Source of the DNA: Planctomycetaceae bacterium
GTDB lineage: Bacteria; Planctomycetota; Planctomycetia; Pirellulales; Lacipirellulaceae
Direction: 5' to 3'
DNA: 64,000 bases
Assembly: GCA_003233055.1 (NCBI GenBank)
Contig: QIKP01000015.1
Location: forward strand, 1-64,000
The position numbers were made by a program, and so were the translations under genes. Below the pieces are notes generated by a model. That model did no database searches, was not told where the DNA came from, and saw only the letters and a list, made by a program, of their open reading frames with translations. Shown piece by piece: positions 50,984 through 57,960 of this stretch. The stretch's first letter is position 1, and each line of letters starts with the position of its first letter.

Positions 50984-52354
50984 CTAAGCGAAACGTCCGA
51001 ATACTTTCCAGGATCCCAGCATGGCCATGAACAGGCAGGCAATCACGACCGACGACGGCTCCGGAACGTTCAGGGGAACGTTCAGCAGCACCGCCAGGTT
51101 GAGCGATGCTCCAGCCGAGCCGCCGATGCTCTCTCGGAGAATGAGAAAATCGGCAAGATTCGTCAGGCCGTCTTGATTCAGATCGCCCTGCTTCCACGAC
51201 AAAATATTGGCTTCGGCCAACGACTGGCCCCAGCCTTCCACGAAAGCGGTGACATCGTCATTTTCCCAGAGCCCTGTTCCGTCGCCGGTGACCTGCCCAT
51301 CGAGATTGATATCGCCCGGCAGGGAGTAGTCGCTTTGAGCAAGCAGGGTGGTCAGCTCATCACGGTACAAGGAAAGGTCCGAAAACGCCGTTAGGCTGCC
51401 CGATTCCCCGCCAGACAACGAACCATACACGGCTGGCCCTGGCTGGTTGGGGAAGGTATAGACCACATGGGTGATGCCTGCCAGTTTCCATTCGCCGTCG
51501 ACTTGAGAGAAGACGCTCGAGCCAGAATCGCCAGCTACCCCTTGAGCTTCGTTGAGGCCCCCGCTGGAGCCAAATTCGACCGCCTTTAAAAAAGTATCTC
51601 TCCCGCTGATAGAAAGCGCCCAATCGTCTCCAATTTTGGTGAAGGGATTGTTGGGATTGTCGGGCATGACGGAATTCAATTCCACGTTGTTCGTTCCCCA
51701 TGCTTTCAGCCTTGGCCCGCTACCGCCAGCGAAGCCACTGAAGTCACCGCCTGATGCCGTTGGCGTCCAGGACCAATTGGGCGTCGCCGGATCGTTGTCC
51801 GGATCTGGATCGACATTCCACTGGCGAAGGTTATTCGTCCCTTTGGTCACGCCCCTGGAAAGGAACATGACTTGCGTATTGAGTCCGGGAGTCGAATCCG
51901 CAATCGATATCGGTTGGATCGGGGCACCCATCGCGTCCGCCAGCATCTCGGGCGTTCCCGACAGGCGGTCGGCAGTATCGATTCGGTAGAGAATGATGTC
52001 GGACGTGGCCGACAAGCCTAGTCCCGTCGGGTTCTTCAGATCGATACGAGATCCCGGGATCGGGACGAAAGTTCCGGAATCGAGTACGACCGTCGAAGGC
52101 ACCCCGGCTCCGATTTGGTGCCTTGTTTGCATGACCCATTGATTGCCCAAGTAGATGCCGGAAAAGTTATTGACCGCGTTGGCCCAGCCGGGGTCGGGAT
52201 TCGCTAGACCGGTTGCGGCGGTCGTGGGAGCCAAGTAATTGGACGACGCCGGATTGGGGTTCGTTACGATTAACGAATGGGCGACTCCCTCCGACAGTTG
52301 CCATGCGAAGAACGCCATCGCCACTTGGCAAAACAAAATCGTGGTTCGATTCAT
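50984..52354 (-). CDS. Trypsin-like serine protease with dockerin-like repeats and PEP-CTERM tail
   Basis: A 456-residue exported protein. Signal peptide (ILFCQVAMAFFAWQLSEGVA). Protease part: histidine in VMQTRHQIG, aspartate in SDIILYRID and the nucleophile in GDSGSSVFSQ form the catalytic triad. After it come two calcium-binding dockerin-like segments (GDINLDGQVTGDG and GDLNQDGLTNLADF) and at the very end VPEPSSVVIACLFMAMLGSW with following basic residues, a PEP-CTERM sorting signal recognised by exosortase. The start at 52354 was chosen because it begins the signal peptide; 118 more codons are open upstream but read as intergenic DNA. Confidence 0.85.
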   Translation of the reverse strand: MNRTTILFCQVAMAFFAWQLSEGVAHSLIVTNPNPASSNYLAPTTAATGLANPDPGWANAVNNFSGIYLGNQWVMQTRHQIGAGVPSTVVLDSGTFVPIPGSRIDLKNPTGLGLSATSDIILYRIDTADRLSGTPEMLADAMGAPIQPISIADSTPGLNTQVMFLSRGVTKGTNNLRQWNVDPDPDNDPATPNWSWTPTASGGDFSGFAGGSGPRLKAWGTNNVELNSVMPDNPNNPFTKIGDDWALSISGRDTFLKAVEFGSSGGLNEAQGVAGDSGSSVFSQVDGEWKLAGITHVVYTFPNQPGPAVYGSLSGGESGSLTAFSDLSLYRDELTTLLAQSDYSLPGDINLDGQVTGDGTGLWENDDVTAFVEGWGQSLAEANILSWKQGDLNQDGLTNLADFLILRESIGGSAGASLNLAVLLNVPLNVPEPSSVVIACLFMAMLGSWKVFGRFA

Positions 52355-52746
52355 TATCCTGTTCCAGCTTCCTTTGCTATCAAGCAACGTATTTTTTGTC
52401 GGTCGTGATTTAATGCGGAAGGCGACGAGAACCTTCGGTAGTGCCGGTCGGCCGGTTGGACAGCGACTGGATGGGACCGACCCCTCGTAATTCCCCATTG
52501 TAGGCGAGAATTGCGATTTGCCTATGCTTTTGGTCCGAAAAAGATCGATCAACGCCAGAGGAAATTTTTGGTAAGCAAATAAGTAAGTTGGGTCGTGATC
52601 GGCCACCATGGATGACGCCAAGAGCCTCCAGGAAACCCTTGCCAGGGGGGTGCTTAGAGGCTCTGATGGTCGAATGTCTATCTGCGTTAACCTGCATAAT
52701 GCTTGCAATCCGACTCTTCCTTGACTCCTGACGGCCAGTAATTTCC
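52355..52746. other. Intergenic region with hairpin between divergent genes
   Basis: 392 bp between the protease (minus) and queD (plus), so it must carry both promoters. A stem AGAGCCTC / GAGGCTCT (52621-52628 with 52657-52664) encloses a smaller CCC...GGG. A possible -10, CATAAT, is at 52695-52700. No preQ1 riboswitch pattern is seen before queD. No gene is visible. Confidence 0.5.
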
Positions 52747-53148
52747 ATGTACCGTGTCACTCGTGAAATTGACTTTTGCTACGGCCACCGCCTCCTCAAC
52801 TACGAGGGGAAGTGCAAGCACCTGCATGGGCATAATGGAAAGGCCATCATCACGATCGAGTCACCCCGCCTCGACAACCGGGGCATGGTGCTTGATTTCT
52901 CCGACATCAAACAGGTCGTTTCCACTTGGATCGACGAAAATCTCGATCATCGGATGATTCTTTGTCGGGAGGACCCGGTGGTCCCTCTGCTTCAGGAAAT
53001 GGGCGAACCCCTCTACTTGATGGACGAAAATCCGACGGCGGAGAGTATCGCCCGAGTTATCTTTGAAATAACCAAGGAGGCCGGTTTTCCGATCGTCGAA
53101 GCCCGCCTTTGGGAAACCTCCAAGTGCTTTGCGACTTATGTGGAGTAG
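52747..53148 (+). CDS. 6-carboxytetrahydropterin synthase (QueD family)
   Basis: A 133-residue protein of the QueD/PTPS-like family. Zinc-binding histidines lie in CYGHRLL and KHLHGHNG; the catalytic cysteine is in GKCKHLH; the aspartate/glutamate segment is MVLDFSDIKQ, and DENPTAES and WETSKCFATY complete the signature. QueD acts in queuosine biosynthesis from dihydroneopterin triphosphate; eukaryote-type PTPS activity in biopterin synthesis cannot be excluded. No other queuosine gene adjoins. Confidence 0.9.
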   Translation: MYRVTREIDFCYGHRLLNYEGKCKHLHGHNGKAIITIESPRLDNRGMVLDFSDIKQVVSTWIDENLDHRMILCREDPVVPLLQEMGEPLYLMDENPTAESIARVIFEITKEAGFPIVEARLWETSKCFATYVE

Positions 53149-53365: not shown

Positions 53366-55072
53366 GTGTCGAAGATCGCATCGTTTTCTGAATGGCTCCT
53401 ACGGTCACCACTACTTTGGGGTGGCATGGCCTGCATGTTGGTGTACGAACTACTGAATCGGCAGTGGGTCCAAAGCCCTCTCTTGGAGCGCTATCTGCTC
53501 GGGCACCCGATCGAGGGAGCCACGGCCTGCCTCTTCTTCATCGCCATCGCGGCGCTGACGATCCGGGCACTTAGCCTCGCGCCTCAGTTCCTAGCCTTAG
53601 ACCGCCAGCTACTCGAACCGGCTCCTTTTGGTGGGCAGCCGGTCGAAGATGCCTCTCGACTTCTGGAGCAGCTCGAAAGTGCGCCACCCCTTTATCGTCA
53701 CTCCTATTTGGTCGATCGCCTTACCGGCGCGATCGATTACGTCCGCCGCAAGGACTCCTCCGAGACGCTCGAGAAGCATCTCCGTCATCTCGAAGAGGTC
53801 GACCTCGATCGGATGTCCTCTGGCTACGCGCTCACCAAAGTCATTGTTTGGGCGGTTCCCAGCTTGGGTTTCTTGGGTACCGTGGTCGGCATCGCTGAAG
53901 CGATCGGTCACTTGTCGTTCGAAGGCGATACGATTGTCCAGTCGCTCAAGCAGGTCATTGGTCCCCTTTCGTTTGCTTTCGACACCACCACGTTGTCACT
54001 CGCCCTGCTCTTCCCCATCATGTTCGCTTGGTACGCCGTCGAGAAAGTCGAAACCAGGCTCCTCCGACGTGTGGACGAGCGAACCGATGAAGAGCTGATC
54101 GGTCGGTTCTTTCAATACGGATCGTCCAATGATCCGCAGGTAGCCGCTGTAAGGCGGATGTCGGAGCAGGTGGTCCGAACGGTCGAAGCGATGTCGACTC
54201 GCCAGGCCCAATTGCTGGGCGACACCATCCAGGAGAGCCATAGCCATTGGACCGACCTCACCAAGGCGACTGGCAAGCTGCTAGATGAGTCGCTCCGATC
54301 GTCGCTGAAAGAGAGCCTCGAAAAACATGCCGAATCACTCAACCAGGGAACCGAGCGCCAAATCGACCTACTGAACCGGGGCATTCAGCAAAACGTCAAT
54401 GCGATCGAAAACGGCGTGGTCAATCGATTGTCGATGATCGACGATATTTTCGCTAAGCAAGTGCGTGAGGTGGAGCAACTCGTCACGAAACAAGTCGACG
54501 TGCTGGGGTTGTCGATCCAGTCGCAGTCGGAGCAGGCGCAGCAAGGAGCTGCGGACCTCGTCTCTCGGCTTCGCGACGGCTTGGAACGGATGGCCGAACT
54601 GTTAGTCGAAGCGCTTCAACAACATGGGGCGACGCTGACTCAAAGCGAGGAGGAATTTGCCCGGGAAAATCGACGTCACTTCTCGGAAGTCGAGACAGCG
54701 CTTGGCGAGTCGATGGTTCTGGCCGCGGATCGTCAGGAAAAATTGGTTCACCAAAGCGAACGTCTTCTGTCCGAAATGCAGGAAGCCCTGTTGACTTCCG
54801 CTGGCGCCACGGTCGAACAGCAGCAGCAGCTTGTTAGGCAGGGGGATATCCTTTTGCAAGTCGTCGATGCGACCGGACAAGTGAAGCAGCTGGAAGAGAC
54901 GCTGAATCAAAACCTTTCGTCGCTCGGCCGGGTGCATAATTTTGAAGAAACGTTGCTGAGCCTCTCGGCCGCCATCCAGTTGCTCAGTGCGCGGGTCGGC
55001 CGAGAGACCGCGCCCGCACCGATCGATATCCAGTCGCCCTCCACCTCTTCTTCTTCTAGTCAAGCCGCATGA
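53366..55072 (+). CDS. MotA/TolQ/ExbB-like proton-channel protein with long coiled-coil tail
   Basis: A 568-residue inner-membrane protein. Two N-terminal helices (LLWGGMACMLVYELL and EGATACLFFIAIAALTIRAL) come before a cytoplasmic stretch, and then a second pair: VIVWAVPSLGFLGTVVGIAEA (with the LGTVxG motif of ExbB/TolQ) and LSFAFDTTTLSLALLFPIMFAW, in which the FDTTTLSLALLFP segment fits the proton-pathway threonine helix of the family. After the channel comes a ~280-residue predicted coiled coil rich in Gln and Glu, much longer than in ExbB (244 aa). GTG start, AAGGAG/AAAGGAAG upstream. Next gene overlaps by four bases (ATGA). Likely part of a proton-driven complex with the two following proteins. 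Confidence 0.85.
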   Translation: MSKIASFSEWLLRSPLLWGGMACMLVYELLNRQWVQSPLLERYLLGHPIEGATACLFFIAIAALTIRALSLAPQFLALDRQLLEPAPFGGQPVEDASRLLEQLESAPPLYRHSYLVDRLTGAIDYVRRKDSSETLEKHLRHLEEVDLDRMSSGYALTKVIVWAVPSLGFLGTVVGIAEAIGHLSFEGDTIVQSLKQVIGPLSFAFDTTTLSLALLFPIMFAWYAVEKVETRLLRRVDERTDEELIGRFFQYGSSNDPQVAAVRRMSEQVVRTVEAMSTRQAQLLGDTIQESHSHWTDLTKATGKLLDESLRSSLKESLEKHAESLNQGTERQIDLLNRGIQQNVNAIENGVVNRLSMIDDIFAKQVREVEQLVTKQVDVLGLSIQSQSEQAQQGAADLVSRLRDGLERMAELLVEALQQHGATLTQSEEEFARENRRHFSEVETALGESMVLAADRQEKLVHQSERLLSEMQEALLTSAGATVEQQQQLVRQGDILLQVVDATGQVKQLEETLNQNLSSLGRVHNFEETLLSLSAAIQLLSARVGRETAPAPIDIQSPSTSSSSSQAA

Positions 55073-56925
55073 GCCGCGCTCGAGCTCAAAACAACAAGGC
55101 TGCCGCCACACTTTTTCCCTTTCTTGCTGTGCTCCTGAGCACGATGGGGGTATTGGTGGTGCTGCTCGTGGCGATGGCGAGCGTCCAGGTCGATCAGGCG
55201 AAGAAGAAACAGGAAGAGGATGCGGACCGTCACCGGCAGGCCTCCGACGCGCCGGAGCAGCAGCGGCTTCGAAAGGAGCTAGCGCACTTCCAAGGAGAAA
55301 TCGCCCAGCTCGATTCGATGCGTCTCGAGGAACGCAATGCACTCCGCGATGCTCAGTTGCGAACCAGCCATATCGAAGAGAACATTCGCCGATGGCAAGA
55401 TCGGCTCGACTCGCTCCGGTTCGCAATCTCCGAATTGACGCAGCTCAATGGCGATCACACCGACGATCGCGAACAGGCCAAGCAACGCCTTGCCGATTTG
55501 CAAGAAAAAATCGTGGCCGCTCAATCGCAAGTAGCGGACCTGAAGGAAGCGGCTGCGGAGAAACCCGAAGCGTACGCCATCCTCCCCTACGACGGGCCAA
55601 ACGGAACCAAGCGACGGCCCATCTACATTGAGTGCCTCCGCGACCGGGTGGTGATCCAGCCCGAGGGAATCGAACTATTTGCGGCGGACTTTCATCCCGG
55701 ACTTGGCGCCGGCAATCCGCTCGCCGCCGCGCTGCGCGCGGCAAGAGAATACTACCAGGCTGAGGGGCGCAGTTCCTACGAAGAGGCCTATCCGCTCATT
55801 CTTGTAAGGCCCGAAGGGATCGGCAGCTACCGAGCCGTGCTCGAGGCGATCCATTCATGGGATTCGCCTTTTGGCTACGAAATGGTAGGAGAGGATTGGG
55901 AACTCGACTACGGAGCGGCCAATCCAGAAGTGACGTTGGAGATCGCCACGGCGGTCGACAATTCCCGCAGGCGTCAAGCGAAGTTGGCAACGGCTGCCCC
56001 TGCTACGTTTGCGGGTGGGAGCCAAGATGCGTTCCAAACGCAAAGTGGACTGCTCGAAACGGTGCGATCGGGGGCACCGTTAGGGGGCGGATTCACTGCC
56101 ACCGGTGCGGGGGGAAATCGTGGCGGGCAGAGGAGTGGAAATGTGGGTCACGGAAGCGGGGCACCGACTCCTGATGACCGGCTAGCGGCCGCGCTAAAGG
56201 TGGCTACCGGTAGCGAACGAGGTGCTGGGGCTGCCGGAGTCGCTGGGGAGGAGAATTTTTCGGAGAGCCAACAAGCGGGGCTCGGCGTCGGAAGTCAGGG
56301 CCTCGCCATGGAGGAGGGGGAAGGTTCCCAGGGGCCGCATGACGGTGACTCCGAGAGCAGAAAAGAGAGAACGGGGACGGAGAGCGAAGCGGATCAACCT
56401 TCCGATGCTTTGGCTCAGGTTGGGGTAGGCAACGCCGGCGGTACCAGCCCGCCTTCCAGGGCGAACGCGAGCGGAGACGCCTCTTCGCAAGCGTCTGGTC
56501 AAAGCGGGCAGGGGTCCGCAGCCGCCAACGCCTCGGCAAGCAACGCCAGCGGAGGCGAATCGTCCAGTGGAACAGGAAACCAAAGCTCATCGCCAGGCAA
56601 CGGACTCGGGGTCCAGCGCCCGATTCAAGTCGTGGTGCGTCCTGATCGCTTGATCGTGTTACAAGATTCGGTGCGCCCGTCGGTCGAGGCGATTCACGGA
56701 AGGACCGTGCTGCTTGAAAAGAAAGGGGGTCGGGCGTCGGAGCAATTTTCCGTGGCTATTCGAGAACATATCGAGGATTGGGGCATTGCTGGTGCTGGTT
56801 CCTACTGGAAGCCCGTTTTGGTCCTCAACGTTGCCCCCGGCGGAGAGAAACTGGCCCAAGAATTGTCCATCGCGCTGCGGGCAAGTGGCATCGAGGTTCG
56901 CTTCCCCAGTACCACTCGCCGCTAA
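55069..56925 (+). CDS. ExbD-like single-helix protein lacking the proton-carrying aspartate
   Basis: A 618-residue protein with one membrane helix near the N-terminus (FPFLAVLLSTMGVLVVLLVA, residues 16-35), a coiled coil (about 42-165), a folded domain (about 165-310: YAILPYDGPNGTKRRPIYIE, ILVRPEGIGSYRAVLEAI, EVTLEIATAVDN), a long low-complexity Gly/Ser/Ala/Glu linker (about 335-517) and a C-terminal domain (VVVRPDRLIVLQDSV, WKPVLVLNVAPGGE). The arrangement of helix and periplasmic domain is that of ExbD/TolR/MotB stator subunits, but the position of the essential aspartate is alanine (A20). It overlaps the ExbB-like gene and precedes the third gene by 18 bp. Confidence 0.78.
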   Translation: MSRARAQNNKAAATLFPFLAVLLSTMGVLVVLLVAMASVQVDQAKKKQEEDADRHRQASDAPEQQRLRKELAHFQGEIAQLDSMRLEERNALRDAQLRTSHIEENIRRWQDRLDSLRFAISELTQLNGDHTDDREQAKQRLADLQEKIVAAQSQVADLKEAAAEKPEAYAILPYDGPNGTKRRPIYIECLRDRVVIQPEGIELFAADFHPGLGAGNPLAAALRAAREYYQAEGRSSYEEAYPLILVRPEGIGSYRAVLEAIHSWDSPFGYEMVGEDWELDYGAANPEVTLEIATAVDNSRRRQAKLATAAPATFAGGSQDAFQTQSGLLETVRSGAPLGGGFTATGAGGNRGGQRSGNVGHGSGAPTPDDRLAAALKVATGSERGAGAAGVAGEENFSESQQAGLGVGSQGLAMEEGEGSQGPHDGDSESRKERTGTESEADQPSDALAQVGVGNAGGTSPPSRANASGDASSQASGQSGQGSAAANASASNASGGESSSGTGNQSSSPGNGLGVQRPIQVVVRPDRLIVLQDSVRPSVEAIHGRTVLLEKKGGRASEQFSVAIREHIEDWGIAGAGSYWKPVLVLNVAPGGEKLAQELSIALRASGIEVRFPSTTRR

Positions 56926-56943
56926 CCACCGAGGCATCATTCC

Positions 56944-57960
56944 ATGGCTCGACGCCATCGCAACGACGGAAAAGACGACCTGCCTGGGCAGGATTCGTTT
57001 GTCGACATCATCGCCAACATGGTCGGGATTCTCATCCTATTGGTGGTGATCGTCGGTATTGGAGCTGCAGCGACGACGGTTGTCGAAACGTCGCCGGCCG
57101 AAGGTGTCGCTTCGCCCCTCGTCACTTCGAGCGAAGTCAAGGCGGCCCGTCTTGAGGCGATCGCCGCCGCCCGCGACACGATCGAACTCAACCGAAAAGC
57201 AGTTCGGCTGGCCGCCAATGCCGAGGAACTTGATTTCGAACGAGAGAAATTGGCAACTTACGTCACCGCCGCCAAGGAAGAGCTCGACCGTCGTCGCGAC
57301 GCACTCGCACAGGACGATCAGCAGCAGTACGACCTACGTGTTGCGCTGATTTCTGCCGAGGAGACGCTGGACGACCTGACTCGCAAACAGATGGCACTGG
57401 TGAGCGCACCGCTCGAATCGGAGCAACTCAAAAACGTGCCAACGCCCCTTGCAAGGCAAGTGGAGGGGGATGAAGTGGCACTCCGCGTGGAATCAGGTCG
57501 GGTCGCCATCGTGCCGGTCGACGCGTTCGTCTCTCAATTGGAGAGTCGGGGCGCCAACGAAATTAGGCGTTTAGAATCGCGGCGCGACCCGTTGGGGCGA
57601 ATTGGCCCGATGGGCGGATTCCAAATGCTCTACACCTTGGTGTCGCGCCAGGCGGCCAGACCGAACGGTGTGGTCGGGACGATGCACTATCTGGTGGCAG
57701 AAATTCGCCCGACCCGCACGCAAAGAGGGGAACCGGTCGACGAGGCGGTCGGCCCCGATTCCCTGCTTATGGAAGAACTCGATCGAAGGGATCCCCGAAG
57801 GACGTCGGTCACGCTTTGGACCTATCCTGACAGTTTTGAAGAGGTGACCCAACTCCGACAGGCCCTCTACGCGCGCGGCTTTGCCACCGCGATTCGCCCT
57901 CTGGCTAAAGGAACCCATATCGGGCTTTCCCCGTTCGGGTCCAAGTCGCGTGCTCAATAG
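56944..57960 (+). CDS. ExbD-like single-helix protein with conserved aspartate
   Basis: A 338-residue protein with a single N-terminal helix FVDIIANMVGILILLVVIVG. The F-V-D at its start (D21) matches the F-I-D of ExbD, whose aspartate carries the proton. A coiled coil (about 60-130) is followed by a domain of unknown fold (RVAIVPVDAFVSQLE, GGFQMLYTLVSR, HYLVAEIRPTR and SVTLWTYPDSFEEV...LRPLAKGTHIGL-like end). It resembles the second half of the middle protein of the cluster in its alternation of strands. Third gene of the presumed operon. No peptidoglycan-binding OmpA motif was seen. Confidence 0.8.
   Translation: MARRHRNDGKDDLPGQDSFVDIIANMVGILILLVVIVGIGAAATTVVETSPAEGVASPLVTSSEVKAARLEAIAAARDTIELNRKAVRLAANAEELDFEREKLATYVTAAKEELDRRRDALAQDDQQQYDLRVALISAEETLDDLTRKQMALVSAPLESEQLKNVPTPLARQVEGDEVALRVESGRVAIVPVDAFVSQLESRGANEIRRLESRRDPLGRIGPMGGFQMLYTLVSRQAARPNGVVGTMHYLVAEIRPTRTQRGEPVDEAVGPDSLLMEELDRRDPRRTSVTLWTYPDSFEEVTQLRQALYARGFATAIRPLAKGTHIGLSPFGSKSRAQ

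Follow-up and report, generated by a model that had tools for sequence, protein, structure and literature searches.

A conserved three-gene cluster of Planctomycetia encoding a putative ion-driven motor with one partner that lacks the transmembrane aspartate

In ion-driven motors of the 5:2 type, two aspartate residues of the axle interact by turns with the five channel subunits that surround it, and ExbD, TolR and MotB all need an aspartate in the transmembrane (TM) helix. ZorB likewise needs a TM aspartate, and its channel, ZorA, has a long rod-like cytoplasmic tail formed by the C-termini of five subunits (PMC11890865). In the gliding motor AglRQS of Myxococcus xanthus, a single TolQ/MotA-like channel has two TolR/MotB-like partners that differ from each other (PMC9389320), and bacteria of the PVC group, planctomycetes included, are reported to possess clusters of genes for TPR, TolQ-like, paired TolR-like and vWA proteins (PMC12204202). 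Extra terminal domains have also been noted in non-flagellar channels (PMC12505986).

The locus considered here lies on the forward strand of the window, which is the whole 64,000-nucleotide stretch of planctomycete DNA that was analysed, and consists of the three adjacent or overlapping open reading frames proposed in the initial annotation: gene A (53366-55072), with a GTG start, encodes a MotA/TolQ/ExbB-type channel protein of 568 amino acids; gene B (55069-56925) encodes a partner of 618 amino acids; and gene C (56944-57960) encodes a second partner of 338 amino acids. A single TM helix is predicted for B and likewise for C, as annotated. The end of A and the start of B have 4 nt (ATGA) in common, and 18 nt separate B from C. 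The flanks contain a PTPS/QueD-type gene, LspA, a DksA/TraR-type gene and a threonine synthase-like gene. In agreement with the annotation, which had noted no TonB, Tol or Zorya-type gene nearby, none was recognised beside the cluster for TolA/TonB, TolB or Pal, for ZorC/D, ZorE or any helicase or nuclease, for gliding, or for a vWA or TPR protein. The minus-strand gene at 50984-52708 probably encodes a secreted protein, which matches dockerin type I weakly and has a C-terminal hydrophobic anchor, after VPEPSS, that resembles a PEP-CTERM signal. The source genome encodes five other MotA/ExbB-type proteins, so that A is not its only such motor; on its contig C6 (L002), two ExbD-like open reading frames, both with a TM aspartate, are close to a minus-strand one for a MotA/ExbB-type protein of 430 residues.

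Sequence comparison indicates that A, B and C are genes and not chance open reading frames, because relatives keep them: profile searches found orthologues of A in 56 of 59 relatives, of C in 58 of 59, and of both in all 48 relatives of at least 90% completeness. C is present in 119 of the 148 genomes sampled from the class Planctomycetia; outside the class, a sample of the phylum gave weak or partial matches to C in seven genomes, and weak or partial matches to the channel domain of A (approximately 92-125 bits). The gene order A-B-C was found in almost all fetched loci, often with ATGA overlaps, B adjoining C in every locus read that has both and adjoining A in most. The flanks in Pirellulales often include PTPS/QueD-type, LspA, DksA-type and QueC genes and an aminotransferase gene, nearly all of which are absent around the cluster in other orders, where A-B-C persists. 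Since the order persists across Pirellulales and most other Planctomycetia while the flanks change, A-B-C behaves as a unit, in line with the conserved motor-like unit of planctomycetes that had been proposed. The predicted co-occurrence in related genomes also extends to joint loss: when 15 genomes without a C orthologue were searched with the A and B profiles, 14 of them (12 of family f23, together with G123 and G077) proved to lack B and any strong match to A as well. The exception, G137, has A and B at a contig end, where C was probably cut off.

A PTPS/QueD-type or QueC gene is found less than 4 kb from the cluster in 42 Pirellulales loci (52747-53148 in the window). A functional link to queuosine genes was considered and rejected, because this neighbourhood is confined to Pirellulales and not found in other orders; the proximity is probably inherited linkage. 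One contig labelled Candidatus Nealsonbacteria (L172) bears a planctomycete cluster, and is probably a mis-binned metagenome contig. The main text of a transposon-insertion study of Planctopirus limnophila (PMC10632474) does not mention MotA, TolQ or ExbB.

The annotation of A as a MotA/TolQ/ExbB-like protein with an LGTVxG motif is upheld by its match to the Pfam family MotA_ExbB (PF01618; 35.4 bits over a cut-off of 22.9, E 1e-8), and both LGTVVG and FDTTTLSLALLFP are present. The best match of its profile in the PDB is TolQ (E 3e-4), and the average hydropathy of the family has four peaks. The pore-facing threonine of the PF01618 superfamily occurs in both core helices of A: Thr172, within LGTVVG in the third TM helix (53873-53890), is found in 112 of 112 aligned channels that accompany a B protein with Ala at the Asp site, and Thr208, within FDTT in the fourth TM helix (53978-53989), lines up by eye with the pore threonine of TolQ. 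FDTT is found in 103 of the 112 aligned channels with letters at that site.

The cytoplasmic tail of A (residues 226-550; 54041-55015) is approximately 325 residues long, within a family range of approximately 157 to 376. Its hydrophobic residues have the 3.67-residue periodicity of an 11-residue (hendecad) helical repeat, which was as strong in 1 of 1000 shuffles, and the summed spectrum of the family's tails also peaks at 3.67. A classical heptad coiled coil was therefore rejected, its periodicity being 3.5; of the coiled-coil tail of approximately 280 residues in the initial annotation, the long tail stands, but its length and its type of helical repeat are corrected. At 1.5 Å per residue, 325 residues would make a rod of approximately 49 nm. 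The tip of the tail (residues 506-550; 54881-55015; NL..L...FEETLLSLSAAIQLLSAR), which comprises the 45 residues before a variable end, has a motif (NL..L...F.ET..SLSAAIQLLSA) that is recognisable across the class, in other orders and in both of the channel types described below. The C-terminus of A (55064-55072) is Ala-Ala in nearly all aligned rows and otherwise Ser-Ala, and is kept where B does not follow (L102, L103 and L107), so that the ATGA overlap is no full explanation of this ending, which may be a C-terminal signal.

The putative ion-carrying residue of C is Asp21 (codon 57004-57006) in the motif DSFLDVVxNIVG (DSFxD...N.VG), which is invariant in alignments of 22 and of 72 sequences. 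Among the N-termini of C at 163 loci, 148 fit the strict pattern and 15 do not, the latter comprising six with Asp in a slightly different motif, seven of the f21 family and two shortened open reading frames; Asp is thus present in all 154 intact N-termini outside f21. The AlphaFold2 model of C (pLDDT 87) has a TM helix at residues 16-43, a helical hairpin at 62-154 (57127-57405; pLDDT approximately 95) and an alpha/beta periplasmic domain at 176-328 (57469-57927), predicted to be TolR-like with an inserted beta region; the domain aligns with TolR 5by4 over 89 of 105 residues (Z 6.3, rmsd 3.1), a score tied by RNase H-like folds (approximately Z 7). The model of B (pLDDT 70) has a long helix through the TM segment and continues with a long periplasmic helix region of heptad (3.5) periodicity (residues 41-164; 55189-55560); a strand-rich alpha/beta domain (185-272; 55621-55884), in which the order of elements, read by eye from the model, is apparently that of ExbD/TolR; a Gly/Ser-rich, low-confidence linker (approximately 340-510; 56086-56598; pLDDT mostly below 50); and a C-terminal domain (513-611; 56605-56901) similar to the periplasmic domains of ExbD (8pek, Z 6.4, 75 of 98 residues) and TolR (5by4, Z 6.0, 82 of 105 residues), to which unrelated folds score equally. 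Neither B nor C exceeds the cut-off of any Pfam family, and neither matches Pfam ExbD or an OmpA-like domain at E 1; plain Foldseek comparison of the two models with the PDB gave no match at E 0.001, and hhalign of C with the ExbD proteins of its own genome gave a marginal similarity (E 0.007, Prob 6). The profile searches by which the initial annotation was to be checked therefore place A in MotA_ExbB, but do not place B or C in Pfam ExbD.

The TM regions of B and C align as paralogues (hhalign Prob 97, E 7e-11), with Asp21 of C opposite Ala20 of B (codon 55126-55128), so that the ion-carrying aspartate is present in the single TM helix of C and missing from that of B. The initial annotation had noted neither this absence nor its covariation with the type of channel, described below. 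The residue of B at this site in 140 aligned rows is Ala in 118, Asp in 10, Ser in five, Thr in four, Gly in two and Leu in one, although four of the five Ser rows come from short paralogues and the Leu row from f21, and some of the rows counted as Ala may be f21 proteins, for which the alignment means little. In all nine B-Asp genomes for which the channel is known, a divergent channel is present, type 2, with GTVxHFG and FNTT-like motifs as opposed to GTVxGI and FDTT; the tenth B-Asp locus has no channel on its contig, and the type-2 channel was found in no genome with B-Ala. The pairing suggests that the residue of B follows the type of channel. Type-2 channels form one clade (support 100), and on a tree of B built without the TM columns the distribution of Asp needs four changes, at least two of which are forced by starred branches; two to four independent events underlie the link. 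When 98 genomes of the class were searched with a DNA pattern for the type-2 motif, five isolated matches were found, none of them in the neighbourhood of known A, B or C genes. In one subgroup of family f1 (five loci), a type-2 channel is present in addition to the usual linked A, and these linked A proteins have lost the pore motifs, their identity to that of the window being 17-24% in the channel region and 51-59% in the distal tail, which suggests that the tail does something other than conduct ions.

A strict exchange of charge, in which FDTT becomes FNTT in A when Ala becomes Asp in B, was rejected as a general rule because paralogous clusters break it: L264 combines FDTT with Asp in the B-like protein, and L238 combines FNTT with Ser. 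Short paralogous clusters (L088:7435-11005, L235:8164-12122, L236:7463-11188, L238:7383-11031, L256, L259 and L262) encode a channel of approximately 490-600 amino acids, a B-like protein of approximately 270 amino acids that has Ser where Asp would be, and mostly also a C-like protein; the channel of L238 has a weak N-terminal zinc-ribbon match. At L257:5754-8358, L264, L265 and L266, a shorter channel of approximately 290-315 amino acids accompanies a B-like partner with Asp, and L257 has a C-like partner with Asp too. Clusters of the L257 type are possibly related to the PVC clusters (PMC12204202).

The f21 family, which we infer to be Gemmataceae-like, still has B and C as neighbours, and no orthologue of A was found in it; an unlinked A-like protein of approximately 75-100 bits remains. 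At the seven f21 loci that were read, the motor motif is missing from the N-terminal helix of B and from that of C. The loss of A together with both motor-type helices suggests that the helices of B and C are tied to the channel. At two f21 loci (L254:5956-6720 and L255:5841-6590, both on the minus strand), a small partner comes after the unlinked A-like channel; it has DSFVAVVVTKLTG, again with Ala at the Asp site and also with a Lys in the helix.

The reading favoured here, with a probability of about 0.5, is that the three proteins assemble in the inner membrane into a motor of the 5:2 type, driven by ions and made of five A, one B and one C, its axle being heteromeric. The gene set, its conservation and joint loss, the paralogy of B and C, the pattern of Asp, its covariation with the type of channel and the conserved tail tip are observed; we infer the stoichiometry, rotation, step size and ion of the motor, and the binding of the tail tip and periplasmic domains. 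The marginal match of C to ExbD, the lack of Pfam ExbD matches in B and C, the fold scores tied by unrelated folds and the small number of events behind the pairing of B-Asp with type-2 channels count against this reading. Ions would pass between the threonine ring of A and the sole aspartate of C (Asp21), and the second axle position would be filled by the paralogous helix of B, with Ala at the Asp site. If the 5:2 mechanism holds, a single Asp would meet five equivalent sites, giving five 72-degree steps per turn in place of ten 36-degree ones. On the periplasmic side, C would bear a TolR/ExbD-like domain near the membrane, and B would bear one such domain and a second on a disordered linker of approximately 170 residues; this linker could reach the outer membrane, so that B could act as the TonB/TolA-like transducer that the locus is without. 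The five tails of A would bundle into a cytoplasmic rod of approximately 50 nm with a conserved tip that may bind a partner, and the motor would couple this tail to the periplasm. A more specific version, in which B and C form an obligate heterodimeric axle with a single Asp (five ions per turn), and in which the absence of the other Asp is selected and is reversed only when the pore is replaced, is put forward tentatively, the odds being against it.

B might instead lie outside the pentamer, as a TonB/TolA-like transducer docked to a classical A5C2 motor with a homodimeric axle, its linker spanning the periplasm. Its missing Asp in most genomes, its long disordered linker and its terminal domain do resemble a force transducer, and the transducers known so far bind laterally to their motors (PMC12204202); this arrangement is nevertheless unlikely, since the helix of B is paralogous to that of C and in register with it at the Asp position, has reacquired Asp, together with a different type of channel, at two or more places in the tree, and degenerates together with the helix of C when A is lost. 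If the axle is heteromeric, Ala in B could still be neutral, a second Asp being unneeded and the pairing of type-2 channels with B-Asp being due to co-inheritance. We think such neutrality improbable, given that B proteins have stayed without Asp across a wide divergence (29-38% identity to that of the window), that Asp is seen only with type-2 channels, and that the type-2 DNA motif is isolated from A, B and C, even though the site tolerates several small residues (Ala, Ser, Thr and Gly), a single base changes Ala to Asp, and the B-Asp proteins are clustered on the tree.

In the f21 family, B and C remain adjacent and both the A orthologue and the motor-type helices are absent, which would be consistent with a structural, channel-independent role of the periplasmic pair, to which the channel is a dispensable accessory. 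The other families examined keep the three genes and the motor motifs together, and f21 has the appearance of a derived loss in which an unlinked A-like channel stays, making this a very improbable explanation. Least probable is a Zorya-like motor for phage defence: A is long-tailed and has a weak match to ZorA3 of PADLOC (E 3.5e-6), but this match covers residues 264-516 of the tail, a region in which helical repeats readily give matches, and the lack of an OmpA-like domain match in B and C, the lack of a recognised helicase or nuclease gene alongside and a universal presence in complete relatives, as opposed to the patchy distribution of defence systems, led to the rejection of Zorya membership. 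Because the gene set is core and near-universal, a standing role in the envelope is likelier than defence.

Current models of 5:2 motors have two equivalent aspartates alternating around the ring of five. If the heteromeric reading is true, a natural one-Asp motor would directly test whether this alternation is needed and how many ions pass per turn. The cluster is a near-universal, uncharacterised gene set in a class noted for unusual cell biology, the conserved tip of the cytoplasmic tail is a possible bait for its partner, and lineages without all three genes or without the channel only are ready-made controls.

In comparison with known systems, A-B-C resembles TolQR and ExbBD in the PF01618 channel, the Asp motif of C and the apparently ExbD/TolR-like periplasmic domains, but those systems have homodimeric small partners, no long tail and a dedicated TolA or TonB, and the sequence similarity of C to ExbD is marginal. 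It shares with ZorAB the long helical cytoplasmic tail of the channel (a hendecad repeat in A), whereas the homodimeric ZorB bears a Pal/OmpA-like peptidoglycan-binding domain, for which B and C have no match, and Zorya is a defence system with DNA-acting partners, none of which was recognised beside A-B-C. AglRQS likewise has one channel gene and two different TolR-like genes, but AglQ and AglS are both reported to have the conserved Asp (PMC9389320), which A-B-C has in C only. The PVC clusters also pair one TolQ-like gene with two heterologous TolR-like genes, but A-B-C is without their vWA and TPR genes as recognised neighbours, and the paralogous L257 cluster, with Asp in both partners, may be nearer to them than A-B-C is. 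The tail and the two unlike partners, which the initial annotation had held to set the cluster apart, therefore have precedents in the ZorA tail, AglRQS and the PVC clusters: long channel tails and two unlike partners are already known, and neither is new by itself. The annotation's suggestion that the motor may be undescribed agrees with our comparison, which found no matching characterised system, and with the open-access literature, in which no paper was found that describes this cluster or an Asp-less partner. The distinctive part of the cluster is that partner, B.
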